A stretch of 64,000 nucleotides of DNA, taken from positions 17,101,021 to 17,165,020 of the forward strand of contig OX387602.1 in assembly GCA_947568835.1 (NCBI GenBank), given 5' to 3'. The position numbers were made by a program, and so were the translations under genes. Source of the stretch: Protonemura montana. Taxonomy: Eukaryota; Arthropoda; Insecta; Plecoptera; Nemouridae. The stretch's first letter is position 1, and each line of letters begins with the position of its first letter. This document shows positions 4,826 through 19,910 of this stretch, one piece after another. The notes under the pieces were generated by a model that did not search any database, was not told the origin of the DNA, and saw nothing but the letters and a program-made list of their open reading frames with translations.

Positions 4826-7800
4826 ATGTCGTCGCACTGCCGGATGTCCTCGGGAGGCCCCCGACACACGGACTGGGACATCAACGACACCAGCATACCC
4901 AGGGTACGTCCGACTAATCAATCTAACCGTCTTCGCCAATCTTGCAAGGCGAAACAGATCATTTAGTAGAAGCAGATAATTGAGACGCGGTTCATCTTCC
5001 CTAGAAACTTTGTGCATTTTTTCCGGTCCAAATTTCAGAATATAATTGGTGTCAGGATAAAGTGTTTATAAATGAATCATAAGTGCACAATTGTCAGAAA
5101 AAAAAATCAAATTAATGCTTTCCAGCTCTGAATCTAGTTTTGCAAAAATTGCATGCGTCTATTTTGGTATTTCGCTAGGATTCTTTCTTCAAGACTAGAT
5201 TTCAGAACAAAACGGCACCCAGTGAACGATTCCAGCTTTTGTATTCCCGAGTTTACAATATTTTACAAGCAGGAAACTGGACATTAAAAATATTCTTATG
5301 AGTTCTCCCGATCTCATTATATCAATTCGGAAACGCGACTTCCCTTCTCTGTAACCGACAAGCGAAAAGATCATGTCCATGCACGAAACAATAATGGGCG
5401 ACCATAAACGGTTATATGTTAATTCCCTTCGAGTAAAGTAAGAATTCGATTCCGGCTGTATTCCGTGACAAACGCCAAAACGCATGCAGGGTAATTTATT
5501 TATTTTCGAGGTTTACACGTTCAACACGGAGTAGGAAAATTGGGTAGACTTTACTCTCAAAAAAGGCTTTATAGATCTTTAAATACGCTCAAATTTCAAT
5601 TTCAGGTGAGCGAATTTGACCGCTGGGAGGAATGGGCCGACGGCCACTGTCGCCTTGTCTACCCTCCATCGAGCGAAGAAGCAAAACGCCACGGCTCAGG
5701 CTGGGCGATGCGCAACACCAACAACCACAATGTGCACATCCTCAAGAAGTCCTGTCTGGGGGTGCTAGTCTGCACGCAGCGCTGCTCGCTCCCCACCGGC
5801 GACAAAGTGCACCTTCGACCTGCCATCTGCGACAAGGCGCGGAAGAAGCAACAAGGTATTATCGTCAAGACCGACCACTTTTAGTTTCTTACATTCTCTG
5901 CAGTTGTACTCGAAGGTTTTCCAACTGATTTTTGGGATTGTTGTACGGGGTTGGGTGGGTTGGGGTGGAGAAGGGGGCAATTTGGATTCAAGCCAAGGTA
6001 ATTGACGCTCGGCTATTGCCCATTGCAATTTAATGTGTAGACTGAAAATATCCTAAACTGTCAAGAAATCAACAATTGGAAATGTTATCTCGTTTTGGAA
6101 TGTTCCTATGTATACTACAACTACACTAAAATTAAATTAACTAAAAGTACAACAAAAAGCGCAATTAAAACGTTGGCACACTAATAGCGTATAAGTACTT
6201 TGGTGATAGCCCTTTTAAAACACGTGCATAACTATTAGAAACTTCCGGCCAGCATTTTCCAGCGCAATTTCCTTGTTTCACCTTCTCCTGTATTTTTCCA
6301 GGTAAACCATGCCCCAACAGACAATGTTGCGGTCGACTAGAGATCCTCCCATGCCGTGGACACTGTGGCTACCCTGTCACCCACTTCTGGAGACACACAG
6401 AACACGCCATATTCTTCCAGGTAATTCTCAAGAGGACATAGCTCAAAAGAAATGAAACTGAGTCTTAGGAAATATACTCTTGATCGTGTGCCCGTTGTTC
6501 GTTTGCTCATGAGCTGGAAACGTTTTTAGGCGAAAGGAGTCCACGACCACCCCAAGCCCGAAGCGAAGTCCACGTCGGAGGCTCGACGCAGTCTGGGTGC
6601 CGGCCGACGAGTCCGCGGTCTAGCCGTGCTCCTGGCCAGGGAGGCAGCGCTCGGTAGCAAGGTGAATAACTGACAAAACTAGACCATCCCGGACTAGACC
6701 AGCCCTCCAGGCTAAGTCTAGCACTAGCTCAGATACCACATCGATGATAGTCCATGGTACAAGTTAAGTTGGTACTTGGCACCATGCTGTCAGTCCAGAA
6801 CGGTCAAGCGAGATAATCAATTAGTTTCAATTATCGAGTGCGCATATCTGCTGATTAATTGTCGAGGATAACCAATCAATATCCGACCACCCAAGAAGTA
6901 ATTGCCGGTTAACACACCTCGTTCAGGTGGTCTGACTCTTCATAATCGCCCACAGGGGATACAGAAGCTCAAATAAATCTCATAGACACCAATTATCGTG
7001 TCGTTCCGTCAATTAACACTTTGAGTAATTGAATGATGCGTACTGGTAATTAGATATCCGCGAGGCGAATGGTATTTTAACGGCGAGCGTTAATTCGTGT
7101 GTTTCAGCTGATGTCGTTACGGGAAGGGAAACGACCCGCAGAGACTGATTACGAGATAGCGCCACGGTCGCTCCTCCCTCCGCCTCCGCTGATAAGCGAT
7201 ACTCAAAAAGGTAACCATCGGTTTCAACAAAAGCAACCACGGAGTCTTTATACGGCCGTTGACATGCTTTTAAGCCAAACTTACCACAATACGATAAAAC
7301 TGGCATAACTTTCTAGCGTTCAGTGCTGTATTTAAAGATTATAAGTATAGAGTGTCCAATTTCCCTGATTGTCTGTAAAAAAATCTTGCGTTGCATATCG
7401 TCCTCTACAAATATTTTCTCATCTATTCAACCGATTCAACTTAGGAATAGAAATGGTTACCACTTTATCGAGTTCTAATTCCAAATGAACTAATTTTGCA
7501 GATTTCTCGTGTTCCTGCCCACCGTTCGAGTGCATGTGCGGTCGGTCACCGCCGAGCCAGGGTCAGTACCAACTCCACCCCAACCACCCCAACCACCAGT
7601 ACCACCCTTACACGTCACCAGACTCTTCCTACTGGTTCCACGAGCCGTCACCACACACCGACGAACAGTCACCGATCGCCGCCAGCCAGCCACAAACCTA
7701 CGACTTTCTACCCCTCGGCGGTGACCTCTTCCAGCCCGAAGAAATCTTCCAGCTCGACCAGCCTCTCAAGTCAGACTACTCTCTTCTGCACAACAACAAC

Positions 7801-8562
7801 AACAATAACAACCTCACTAGCAACAACAACAACACCGATGTCGCTCGGTCACCGCCGATGCTGCTCGATTTGGGCAGTGGGGCGATTCACCGGGACACCA
7901 TCAAGCCGGAGCCAGAGTACTGGATGCTGGCGCAGCATCAGGACGGCGGCAACACGGACGAGAGCAACAGCAGCTCGAGCAGATTCCCGCCCTGCTCGCC
8001 GGAAAACATCGCCCTCAACAACAATAACCTGGTCGAGCAGCCGAACCTTTGTGAGATTGGACGAACGATGCACTATGAAGGCGATACCGTTGAGATGAGT
8101 CAAAACGCGAAGGAAGCGGCCAAGTTAGGATTAATCTGCAGTGATATGCAGCCGGATGGGATGGTGCCTTACGGCGTAGACTGCGAGAGAATGAAGACGT
8201 ATCTTAGCATAGAGGAGCCTACGACGGGCATGATGAATTACTACAATCATAGAGGACAGGAGGAGATTCCTATGGAGACCGGCTACCCGCAGTACGAGAT
8301 GCAGGAGGCGCCGCGGTGTGGCAAGGTTTTGCAAGACAGCTACGAGAGTGAGTGTAACAGTATGAACATGATTCCCCAGTATCAAGTACAGTCTGACTTT
8401 AACAACGTGTTGTACTGCGGAAGTGATAACTTAAGCAACATGCCGATCAGGTCGCCCGAGGGACAAATGGCGGATTATCGAATGCATTGTGCGGATGATG
8501 CGTTTCAAAATCATTCGCACTTCCACGCAAGCCCACAGTTTCAGCACGTCACGCATCACTGA
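4826..8562 (+). CDS. gcm: Glial cells missing (GCM-domain) transcription factor
   Basis: Sequence-specific nuclear DNA-binding protein of the Gcm/GCM family, which in flies drives glial and hemocyte fate. Six coding exons: 4798-4903, 5606-5855, 6302-6420, 6530-6661, 7108-7210 and 7502-8562. All introns are GT-AG and join in frame to give 580 residues. The start is the first in-frame ATG (4826); the exon itself opens at a tttcag acceptor at 4797 with no earlier ATG, so a 5' UTR exon is expected upstream. The GCM domain spans roughly residues 16-175: WDIND (17-21), [11 protein letters not shown] (30-40), [11 protein letters not shown] (58-68), the cysteine/histidine pattern of the zinc-binding folds (C76, C82, C86, C101, C113, C118, C127, C131), the THFWRH motif (136-141) and [11 protein letters not shown] early in exon 4. 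Residues 231-240 form a Cys-rich CPPFEC segment. The long C-terminal exon is rich in Pro, Asn, His and Met, with Asn tracts at 325-331 and 335-338, as expected of an activation region. No break or missing key residue was seen. Confidence 0.97.
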
Positions 8563-9097: not shown

Positions 9098-9268
9098 ATG
9101 TCAATTTTGTGGATTCTGTCAACAACATATTGCGAGGAAAAATCCCGCTCAAGTGGACAGAGGAAAATACCGAATCATGAGCAATGTAAGTAGTATTTGC
9201 TAATTTCTCTGCTTATTAATTTATTGTTCGTTACACACTATTTTGATTTACTCGCAGTCAAAGAGTGA
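9098..9268 (+). other. Overlapping upstream ORF in the GLUT-A leader
   Basis: ATG at 9098 has a poor context (T at -3) and opens a 32-codon frame. It crosses the first intron (9186-9257) and ends at TGA 9266-9268, past the main ATG at 9177, which lies in another frame. If transcription starts near 9066, this uORF is in the mature mRNA and would lower translation of the transporter unless ribosomes scan past it. The main ATG has A at -3. Confidence 0.4.
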
Positions 9269-11872
9269 AACGGTGGGCTGGACACCCATTGTTATACTGG
9301 CTGGGGCTGCCACCACGTTGGGGGCATCGCTGACTGTGGGGTATAACAACGCCGTCATCAACACTCCCGCACTTGTAAGATCCATCCCTTACATTTAAAT
9401 TGAAGTGATTTAGTCCTGCGATCCAATTTTAACAAACCCACTTGCAGATTGTGCGTAGGTTTTGTAAAGATTCCATCGCCTTGCGGTACCAACACGAGAT
9501 GACCGATTCCCAAATGAACGTGCTATGGTCGGTTATTGTATCAATTTACTTGCTGGGGGCGTTTATAGCATCTCTCTTCGGGGGCTGGCTTGCTGACAGG
9601 TAAAAATTAAATTTGAATGCTACTGTGTTAATTTTCTGACAGGTCTAGGTGATTCTCGTAAAAATTTAATCGGTCTCATGTCTTAAGGTTTGGGCGCAAG
9701 GGAGCGATCATCATTAACAACGTCTTAGGTGTGATTGCTGCCGTATTGTTTGTAACCTGTCGCTACGCAAACTCGGTGGAGATGCTGCTTTTGGCTCGGC
9801 TCATTGTTGGCCTGTCAGCTGGTAAGAATGTAGGCTTAAATGAACGAGTTAAGTCATCAACCCCTTTTGAAATTGAAATGTGAAAATCGAATCCCCCTGG
9901 TTCTAGGTCTCACACTATGCACGGTGCCAATGTATTTGACAGAGATAGCCCCTATCAGAATAAGGGGTGCTGTAGGATCTCTTTGCCCGCTGGGTCTGGC
10001 GACAGGGGTCGTTCTTGGTCAACTGATGGGATTTCAAATGATACTAGGTAAGTAAAGCTATACCAATTCACACTCATTTTCGAGTAGATACACCCGAACA
10101 ATTATTCCGTGCATTTTAATATCTTCGCTAATAGTTGTGTACTGGTTGGTCTCTTTTCAGGACACGAATCTACTTGGAACTTTCTTTTTGGGTTTTACGC
10201 ACTCCCGATCCTCGTGTGTTCTCTATCACTGCCCTTTTTACCAGAGAGTCCGAAGTACTTGTACTCGATAAAGGGAGAGAAGGAGAAATGCGCGGATGGT
10301 ATGTTACGTCTTGAATTGCTATCTTGAATTAGGAAACATTCTTAGGAAAAATTGAGAGTGGAATGAAAATAATCTTCCACAGAACTGTCTCGCATAAGAG
10401 GTTTACCTATTGAGAGCCTGCAAGACGAATTGGAAGCACTACGGCTGAACGCAGAGAACGAACGCACTTCTTCAGGATCTCATAGTTTGATATCCGTGAT
10501 CAAATCTGGTCCTCTTAGGCTACCCCTGATCCTGGTCTGTGTCCTGCAATCTGTCCAGCAGCTCAGTGGAATAAACGCAGTAAGGCTTTTCCCACCAAAC
10601 AAAGAGTTTCATCGAAATTCAATGATTCAATGACGCATTGAAATACGATTTTGTCTTTGCAGGTGATCTACTATTCTTTTTCCATTTTCCTCAACGCTGG
10701 AATAAGTGTGGAGAACAGTCAATACGCCACTCTGGGCACCGGATGTGTCCTCTGGCTTATTTCGATCCTCTCTGTATTCTACGTAAACATGATTGGCAGG
10801 AGGATTTTAGTGATAACAAGCCTGTTGTCATGCGCCACTTTTCTGACCGTACTTACCATCGCGTTAGTCAACATCGTAAGTGCTATAAAAGAAACAAAAA
10901 AAAGTGTAATTATTTCACGTAAGTACGTCGCAATAAACAATGGGCGGCGATTTCCTTGACACAGGCCGCGTATCGGTACCATATCGAAAGTCAATGTCAT
11001 TTCCTTTACGTGTCATCTACGCCTCATTTTCCACCGAAAATGAAAATGACCGTGGGCACGTTTTAGATTGAGCCTTGGATAATGCCACGCAGGAATTATC
11101 TTGCTGTGGTCACGCAATTTTTTCCACGACAGAATTGTTGGTTAGTAAGAATATTGAGTCAGGAAATAACTATGCATTCAAAAATCCAGAAAAAAGTTAC
11201 AGATTTCTTGCCCACTCAGAGGCCATTGCAGAATACCTGTGTAGAATGTGTATACGAACGGACCGAATTGGATCACTCCCGAGTCCTAGAGATACATAGT
11301 ACGAATAACGATTTCGCAAGGTTTTTTTTTGAGGCAGAATGCTTTGGTTACCAGGTCTTTCGGAGTTCGATCTTATATGGGTCAGGGTTTCTTTGACCTC
11401 GAGTTATGCCTGTGGTTTCTCATATGTTTCTCAGGACTCAACATCCTGGATGCCGTATTTGTGCATAGCTGCCGTTCTCAGTTTCGTGATCTCGTTCGGG
11501 ATCGGGATCGGGCCCATCCCCTTGTTCCTGGCGTCCGAGTTGTTCGTGGTGGGACCCCGACCTGTGGCTATGGCCTACGGTAGCATGGCTAACTGGGCCA
11601 GCAACTTTACTGTCGGCATGACCTTCCCTCTGATACAAGCAGCAATCGGCCCTTACGCCTTCTTGCCGTACATCGCGGCTGCGCTTATCATTTCCGTGTT
11701 TACCTGGTAATTTATTCCGATTTTGATAATTGACAATAATTAAAAAATGTTTAGTTAAAATAATTTTCCTTTCTTTTCTAGGTTTTTTCTCCCCGAAACT
11801 AGGGGCCACACTGCGGAAGATGTTTCTGGCCAGCTGATACTTGGTTTCAAAAGCCAGATAAACAAGACTTGA
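9177..11872 (+). CDS. Class I facilitative glucose transporter (SLC2A/GLUT-like), tandem copy A
   Basis: Twelve-helix plasma-membrane hexose uniporter of the major facilitator superfamily. Ten coding exons: 9177-9185, 9258-9374, 9448-9599, 9688-9821, 9907-10047, 10161-10298, 10383-10579, 10663-10875, 11435-11706 and 11782-11872. They join in frame to 487 residues, normal for the family. Signatures seen: [11 protein letters not shown] in helix 1, the DRFGRKG loop (about 92-98), PMYLTEIAP (145-153), PESPKYL (212-218), QQLSGINA (289-296), NMIGRR (338-343), IGPIP..ASELF (392-404), GPRPVA (407-412), NWASNF near residue 422 and PETRG (462-466). GPIP, GPRP and QQLSGINA resemble human GLUT1-4 more than insect trehalose transporters (Tret1). 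At positions I align with GLUT1 sugar contacts, Q161, N317 and W388 are replaced by P165, L326 and L397, so the substrate is uncertain. It has its own TATA promoter. The first exon encodes only MSN. It is paralogous to the gene at 16909-19910. Confidence 0.93.
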
Positions 11873-16908: not shown

Positions 16909-19900
16909 ATGCCGACAGACTCGACGATGAAGACCAAAGACACGAAGGTAAACGTTTTATTGTTATTAGATAATTTGTATTGTGACAATTTACGAGCGAA
17001 ATTGCAGTCTATTAATAAATAAGAATTGTTGAATATTTTTGTATCACTCTATTTCAATGATGGATATCAAAGACGGTTGAATTTACAAATCAAAATACTA
17101 ATGTTGAAACTAAGCTACGTAAAAAAGTGGAGAGTGGTAGTTTATTTTAACATGCTTGTTGTTGCTTCCAAGGACTCGGCTGCTGTGTCCAAGGGGTGGT
17201 CCCCTATCGTGATCGTCGCTGGTGTCGCCACCACCCTGGGTTCCTCCCTTCCTGCGGGGTACAACATCGCAGTGGTCAACACTCCCGCACTGGTAAAAAT
17301 AATCAATTTCACATAGGAAAGTAGTGCAACTTGTCCGCATATATTTTGTAACCGTATAAGAAAAACTTTGATATATTTCATCTTAACATGCTCCTTATCT
17401 CCACATGTCCGGACACGTGCCAACGCTTTGACGTGAAGTGATGTTGCCTATTTTGAAATTAATGTTGTTGATATTGTTGTTGCTCAAGTTAGCGGTCAAG
17501 CATGAGTGGAATTTTCTATCTATTCTGTCACTGTACTTGCATAACGATATAATACTTCGTATTTACAAAACAAATAATGTCGACGCTGATCATAGCCTTA
17601 ATAACTTTCCGATAATCACCTTGAATTGAACGTAACACACAACTGTCCCGAGTGTACATGATTGCGTGCCAGAAAATGAAAATAAATTAAGACTTTTCCA
17701 TCAACTTTTCCAGACTGTGCAGCAGTTTTGCAACAGTTCCATTTCGTCGCGCTACAACTACGAGATAACTGAGTCCCAACTAAACGTGCTATGGTCGGTC
17801 ATTGTGTCCATTTACTTGCTGGGAGCGTTTATGTCGTCTCTTGCCGGAGGCTGGCTCGCTGACAGGTACCATTATGCAATTCAATTCAATTAGAAAGTGT
17901 GTAATCCTTTACACCCTCGGTAAGTAACAAGCGTTATTACGAGTCCAAGAATTGGTGCCCAAGGCTACGATGAATGTAGAACATGTCATTGTTTACAGAT
18001 TTGGTCGCAAAGGAGCCATAATAATCAACAACGCACTGGGCGTATTCGCTGCTGTATTGTTTGTAGCGTGTCGATACGCAAACTCCGTGGAGATGTTGCT
18101 CTTAGCAAGGTTCGTCGTCGGCCTGGCTGCTGGTACGCTTAACAATGATCGAACTTTGCGTTCTAGTACTTCCTCATAACTAAACCTCGCCGTCCCTGAG
18201 TTGAATTGATTTTTAATGTTCAGTCACAGAACAGCTATTTTTATGGGATTCTTCTAGGTCTAACGCTGTGCACCGTGCCAATGTATTTGACCGAGATAGC
18301 GCCCATTAGTATCAGAGGTGCTGTGGGTGCACTTTGCCCACTGGGTATGGCGACCGGGGTAGTTCTCGGCCAACTACTGGGAATACAATCCATACTTGGT
18401 AACATTGCCTTCGTGTTTTTATTCGATTGATTGTGCTCCTGAAATTTTGGATTTAATCTAATAACAATCGCTGTCTGCAGGCGACGAGTCTTCATGGCAT
18501 TTTCTTTTCGGATTCTATGCAATCCTCATCATCGTGGCTTCTGTAGCTCTGCCAGTTTTACCAGAAAGTCCGAAATATTTGTACGTAGTGAAAGGCGAGA
18601 AGATGAAATGTGCCAAAGGTAATTTCCATTCAACCACATTTGCCAGATAAAATAAAGTAGCCATCGAGTATTATTTTTAAAAGAAATTTCTGTTCAGAAT
18701 TGTCTCGCATACGAGGCGTTCCTGTTGAAAGCCTGCAGGACGAATTGGACGACTTGCGGTTGACCGAAGAAAACGAGCAGAACGCTGGAATCGAACATAG
18801 CTTGATATCCGTGGTGGTTTCGGACTCCCTCAGGCTTCCACTGATACTAGTTTGCGTACTCAACTCAATCCTGCAACTCTGCGGCATCAACGCTGTAAGA
18901 AATCGCGTGCAAAAGTTTTCTTTTTCACCTGGGTTCACACTGGGGCATCAAATATGTGTTTCCTTACAAAAAGCCTATTACGGAGCGGAGAGCAAGTTAG
19001 AATGAAGCAAATTGTGATGACCACTATTAATTCCTATTGCACACGAATAGCAGAATAATTAACAAAAATGTTCCAGTAAGATTTTTATTTTCGATTAAAA
19101 ATACCTCTTATTTCTGCAGGTTTTCTACTACTCATTCTTAATCTTCCTCAACGCCGGAATCAGCGTGCAAAATAGCGAATACGCCACCATCGGCACCGGC
19201 TGCGTCCTCTGGATAATTTCAGTCTTGTCAATTTTCTATGTGAACATGATCGGCAGGCGTCCTCTACTGATTATAAGCCTTTTGTCATGCGCCTCATCCC
19301 TAATCTTGCTCACGATCACATTAATCTACATTGTAAGTACTTAGATATAAACAAATTACAGTTTGAGAATCAACATTGTGAGAGGTGTCAACATTGTCAC
19401 CTGTTTATACCCAAGTGTAAATATAAATATGGAAGGTCCCTCTTTAATTTCCATCTGCTTCCAGGATATAGCCACCTGGATGCCGTACTTGTGCATCGCT
19501 GCTGTGCTCTGGTTCGTGGTCTCGTTCGGGCTCGGGATCGGGCCCATCCCCTTGTTCCTGGCGTCCGAGTTGTTCGTGGTGGGACCCCGACCTGTGGCTA
19601 TGGCCTACGGCAGCATGGCTAACTGGGCCAGCAACTTTGCGGTTGGGATGACCTTCCCTCTGATACAAGCAGCAATCGGCCCTTACGCCTTCTTGCCGTA
19701 CATTGCCGTTACTCTCGCAGTGTGTGCGTTCACCTGGTTAGTACATACACCTGCATACTTGAGGTTTTTTTTAAATAATTTAAAAAATATTTTTTACACT
19801 TGGGTTGTTTATTTTGTTTCTGTAGGGTGTATCTGCCGGAAACTAGAGGGCGTACTCCCGAGGAAATTTCAGAGGAGTTGAAAGTTGGATTTAAAAGTCG

Positions 19901-19910
19901 GAGCAAGTGA
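16909..19910 (+). CDS. Class I facilitative glucose transporter (SLC2A/GLUT-like), tandem copy B
   Basis: Paralogue of the transporter at 9177-11872. Ten coding exons: 16909-16947, 17173-17292, 17714-17865, 17999-18132, 18258-18398, 18481-18618, 18698-18894, 19120-19332, 19465-19736 and 19826-19910, giving 496 residues. Exons 3-9 are 152, 134, 141, 138, 197, 213 and 272 bases long, the same as in copy A, with the same phases. Motifs: [65 protein letters not shown] and PETRG (473-477). In helix 7 the family signature QQLSGINA reads LQLCGINA (300-307), losing one of the two sugar-binding glutamines. Q161, N317 and W388 of GLUT1 align with P176, L337 and L408. The N-terminus is longer (13 residues in exon 1), with a second in-frame ATG six codons in. 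The exon 2 acceptor (AAG at 17170-17172) is weak and could be a few codons off. Confidence 0.92.

Follow-up and report, generated by a model that had tools for sequence, protein, structure and literature searches.

A probable short gene conversion between two tandem SLC2-type sugar transporter genes of Protonemura montana

Two tandem sugar transporter genes

The window analysed here, a 64,000-nucleotide stretch of the Protonemura montana genome (C1:17101021-17165020), carries two SLC2-type sugar transporter genes (Pfam PF00083), copies A and B, that lie in tandem on the same strand ~8 kb apart. Copy A (9177..11872, +) has 10 exons and encodes 487 aa: exons 1-5 at 9177-9185, 9258-9374, 9448-9599, 9688-9821 and 9907-10047 (+), and exons 6-10 at 10161-10298, 10383-10579, 10663-10875, 11435-11706 and 11782-11872 (+). 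Copy B (17152..19910, +) has 9 exons and encodes 490 aa: exons 1-5 at 17152-17292, 17714-17865, 17999-18132, 18258-18398 and 18481-18618 (+), and exons 6-9 at 18698-18894, 19120-19332, 19465-19736 and 19826-19910 (+). Both reading frames are complete and all introns are GT-AG. Exon lengths are equal in the two genes from A exon 3/B exon 2 through A exon 9/B exon 8, so that the codons align without gaps; the comparison covers 482 codons, which excludes the N-termini, where no alignment is possible, and the final few codons at the C-terminal end, and the same residue is encoded at 364 of them. Outside the segment described below the coding identity is only about 73%.

Both proteins match the Sugar_tr domain (PF00083) over its full length (A 351.3 bits, E=1.1e-104; B 345.6 bits, E=5.8e-103; cut-off 22.3), and the match of human GLUT3 to copy A spans nearly the full length (E=3.6e-98). 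Among known transporters their closest counterparts are the facilitative hexose transporters GLUT1/3/5 (SLC2). By these matches A and B are assigned to the SLC2/GLUT-like sugar transporter family; the label "glucose" that they were given in the first-pass annotation is uncertain, because transmembrane helix 10 (TM10) has GPIPL, not GPIPW.

Upstream of the transporters lies a glial-cells-missing type gene, recognized by an exon with a GCM DNA-binding motif at window positions 5603-5875 (+; PF03615, E=1.3e-40). A 357-residue open frame at 7489-8559 (+), rich in Asn, Gln and Pro and with the highest codon score in the window scan, gave no Pfam match and is perhaps the last exon of that gene.

The genome searched comprises 258.5 Mb in 34 contigs. 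A protein search identified a third paralogue, C, a multi-exon gene on contig C14 in which the corresponding segment lies at 3499615-3499890. No third closely similar copy or donor was found: a search of the genome at the DNA level with the exon as query, by a method that passes over simple repeats and very frequent words, returned A and B only; in a viral collection one locus matched, at 27% identity, and was not useful.

A near-identical segment in the longest exon

The two copies share a nearly identical segment in an exon of 272 bases, which is exon 9 of copy A (11435..11706, +), as the first-pass annotation had it, and exon 8 of copy B (19465..19736, +), which had also been numbered 9. 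The counts given there are exact: between 11502-11673 of A and 19532-19703 of B there are 5 differences in 172 positions, with uninterrupted identities of 79 bases (11502-11580/19532-19610) and 56 bases (11618-11673/19648-19703). When the whole genes are compared, introns included, the only exact matches of at least 18 bases are of 79, 56 and 27 bases, and all three are in this segment. The differing positions are 11581 (GGT/GGC), 11609 and 11611 (ACT/GCG), 11614 (GTC/GTT) and 11617 (GGC/GGG). Four of these are silent and one is a replacement, so that to call the synonymous sites identical here was too strong. Four of the five fall within a 9-base island between the longer identity blocks (11609..11617, +; B: 19639-19647), a clustering equalled in 263 of 200000 random placements. 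Apart from the island there is one difference in 163 bases, which suggests that most of the segment was homogenised recently relative to the rest of the gene.

A likelihood scan places the best segment at 11490..11673 of copy A (+) and 19520..19703 of copy B (+), with 6 differences in 184 bases and encoding GPIPLF...FLPYI; its log-likelihood gain is 38, compared with 6 for the best segment elsewhere, and a left edge at 11483 is nearly as likely. The 3' edge is sharp, the 56 identical bases being followed by 15 differences in 28 bases (11674-11701). In a blastn comparison of the window with itself four A-B matches were obtained: a block of 94% identity over 232 bases that contains the segment, two exon blocks at 74%, and a long gapped match at 65% that spans several exons with their intervening introns.

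Silent divergence between A and B is 0.12 in the tract (42.8 sites) and 0.62 over the remaining aligned codons (318 sites), and replacement divergence is 0.015 and 0.155, respectively. The tract figures refer to the 58 whole codons of 11501-11674, which hold 7 differences, the five above and one at each edge. As the earlier reading anticipated, silent divergence is not uniform from exon to exon: the tract exon stands at 0.26 and the other eight aligned exons at 0.435-0.73. Within the tract exon the 3' part is at 0.75 (8.7 sites) and the 5' part at 0.40 on just 14.8 sites, making the 5' edge a soft one. Beyond the exon both flanks are divergent (the seven aligned exons on the 5' side 0.435-0.68, the last exon 0.73), and this divergence on both sides of the tract in both copies argues against a hybrid gene produced by one crossover. 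The lowest 57-codon window has a silent divergence of 0.093, a value reached in none of 20000 codon permutations (lowest permuted value 0.177), and a run of 34 codons is free of silent change (longest permuted run 25).

For the two introns beside the tract exon, 56 and 86 of 300 shuffled sequences score at least as well in local alignment as the real ones, and seven of the eight A-B intron pairs lie inside the range given by shuffling (17 to 293 of 300); the intron after A exon 4 is marginally alike between the copies (3 of 300).

Gene conversion and competing explanations

The tract is very probably the product of interlocus gene conversion between tandem duplicates, extending from ~11483/11490 to 11673. 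The duplication of A and B is shown to be old, as judged from silent sites that are near saturation, and ~170-190 bases of the longest exon would have been copied non-reciprocally between the copies much later, since the trough in silent divergence has divergent sequence to its left and to its right. The longest stretch of good homology is probably where the exchange began, and the tract may be confined to the exon because of the flanking introns, which align no better than shuffled sequence. The recent conversion first proposed thus gains support from a trough with a sharp 3' edge, from near-saturated flanks, and from the divergence of paralogue C at silent sites.

The last point comes from a three-way comparison of 436 codons aligned in A, B and C. 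Silent divergence in the tract is 0.57 for A-C and 0.58 for B-C but 0.12 for A-B; outside the tract the corresponding values are 0.76, 0.76 and 0.60. Amino-acid differences in the tract number 18 of 58 for A-C, 19 of 58 for B-C and 2 of 58 for A-B. Among degenerate positions with one amino acid in all three proteins, the codons of A and B coincide at 32 of 35 in the tract versus 93 of 174 outside (Fisher p=1.7e-5). Where the amino acid varies between the three, A equals B at 17 of 19 positions in the tract and at 104 of 196 outside it (p=0.0027). Codon agreement with C shows no significant increase in the tract, either for A (16 of 35 versus 60 of 174 outside, p=0.25) or for B (15 of 35 versus 53 of 174, p=0.17); the slightly lower A-C and B-C silent divergence there may be due to GC-rich codons. 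Because C is so divergent in the tract at silent sites and its codon identity is not significantly raised, the A-B identity is special to that pair, and family-wide conservation of the tract, whether of protein or of DNA, is too low to explain it.

Run tests in the manner of Sawyer, the way in which GENECONV works, were carried out with our own script, C serving as the third gene. Taken over the 648 sites that vary among the genes, the longest stretch of A=B falls in the tract and was reached in 3 of 20000 permutations, and in 0 of 20000 when mismatches were allowed. With silent sites only (185 variable sites in codons synonymous in A, B and C) the exact run was reached in 1215 of 20000 (p about 0.06, not significant) and the run with mismatches in 285 of 20000, which is significant. 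A conversion test of the type that had been proposed is therefore positive on all variable sites and marginal on silent sites alone.

As a control, 28 pairs were formed from eight further sugar-transporter reading frames found in this genome. None of the 25 pairs with silent divergence of at least 0.71 has a 57-codon window below 0.50 or an exact match longer than 18 bases, although the control is a loose one, these saturated pairs being 26-63% alike in protein and A-B agreeing at 364 of 482 residues. The three closer pairs, all among duplicates on contig C5, are 82-93% alike in protein with silent divergence of 0.13-0.39, windows down to 0.02-0.25, and exact matches of 38, 38 and 149 bases. 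Silent divergence that is high overall yet falls into a deep trough is seen in A-B and in 0 of the 28 control pairs. The duplicates themselves (L009, L010 and L011, at C5:15151058, 15098160 and 15088154) are three close sugar-transporter genes, of which L009 and L010 lie ~53 kb apart on opposite strands, range between 0.02 and 0.28 in silent divergence from one part of the gene to another, and share the 149-base exact match; this pattern is possibly another conversion, or just recent duplication.

The conversion may have been more than one event. Two or more conversions, maybe in opposite directions, would be a sub-case of the same reading and share in its probability; we consider this possible, if somewhat doubtful. 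The tight clustering of four differences in the island favors it, and discontinuous tracts are described at low frequency, with overlapping events able to mimic split tracts (PMC3924818). The island could accordingly be a gap between two events or a patch left unconverted in one, but a single event with patchy repair, or later clustered mutation, would give the same picture.

An assembly or polishing artefact, in which one copy was corrected with reads of the other, is very unlikely. Exact blocks of 79 and 56 bases would be within reach of short-read mis-mapping, but the five differences, four of them clustered, persist in the tract, which argues that the copies were read apart there, and the window is free of N and lies within a 33-Mb contig.

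Also very unlikely is that selection on the nucleotide sequence itself (a splicing enhancer, RNA structure, codon bias or an antisense frame) has fixed the silent sites of A and B since the duplication. Third-position GC does rise in the tract, to 0.76 from 0.55 in the remainder of A and 0.59 in that of B, an antisense frame is open across the tract in both copies, and such a constraint could act on A and B alone and spare C. C is nevertheless free at the silent sites of the tract, the antisense frame differs at 5 of 60 residues versus 2 of 60 in the sense frame, the window holds no Rfam match at gathering thresholds, and the ten other stretches of at least 8 residues in which A and B are identical show silent divergence of 0.32-0.84. 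An antisense gene, an RNA family, codon bias and a conserved protein are thus each thought unlikely as the cause of the silent identity, and a family-wide constraint on silent sites is rejected by the divergence of C from both copies. Returning to conversion, third-position GC of the tract-exon flanks (A 0.67, B 0.76) is based on too few codons to give its direction.

Position in the transporter and comparison with known conversions

Aligned to human GLUT3, the tract covers TM10-TM11 (helix numbers from PMC4549712). The GPIPW Trp of TM10 is described as present in GLUT1-4; in GLUT1 it is W388 in helix 10, with N411 in helix 11, W388 is inferred to act in substrate recognition, and GLUT5 A396W is reported to have gained glucose transport (PMC4549712). 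Unlike the Class I glucose-type GLUTs, A, B and C lack this Trp, with GPIPL in A and B and GPIPY in C, which puts Leu (A and B) or Tyr (C) at the W388 position. The Asn of the NW motif is retained in A and B. Outside the tract, TM7 reads QQLSGIN in A (10383-10579), like GLUT3, and LQLCGIN in B (18698-18894), where Leu stands in place of the first Gln of the QQ pair, the sugar-binding pair of this helix. Two other paralogues, on contigs C4 and C2, carry the Trp (GPGSIPW), and the former has the look of what we take to be the canonical insect Glut1.

Since the tract carries the TM10-TM11 part of the sugar cavity, with an unusual Leu where GLUT1 has W388, it might be supposed that the conversion has been held by selection, keeping one substrate gate common to two transporters that diverge elsewhere, as in the QQ pair of TM7; we consider this unlikely. 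A residue connected with substrate recognition may also have been settled for both genes in one step.

The observation is real, statistically strong and ordinary in kind. What it adds is a probable short conversion between paralogues with near-saturated silent sites, coding sequence ~73% identical outside the tract, and adjoining introns that can no longer be aligned; tracts of this sort mislead both the dating and the trees of transporter families. A literature search judged by titles and the opening lines of abstracts found no conversion in insect GLUT genes.

Conversion is well known in duplicated genes, and the A-B pair adds a clean new case. Tracts that survive between Caenorhabditis paralogues are described as tending to 50-200 bases and as usually reported for exons, and in one genome-wide survey they were commoner between near neighbours (PMC3966223); for yeast and rodents, an average of 200-300 bases is given as usual (PMC3924818). 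The length of the A-B tract, the same-strand tandem layout and the ~8 kb spacing fit these published accounts. Closest in form are Caenorhabditis fog-2/ftr-1, HSP16 and zim/him-8, in which neighbouring copies have short tracts alike (Table 1 means of 58-416 bp; PMC3966223); A and B differ from the cases as presented there in that their flanks are near-saturated at silent sites and their adjoining introns are without homology above shuffled sequence. The GOT1p1/GOT1p2 genes of Tigriopus californicus likewise form a mosaic of high and low divergence between duplicated metabolic genes, although these were studied across populations (PMC3728101) and the A-B mosaic comes from one genome.
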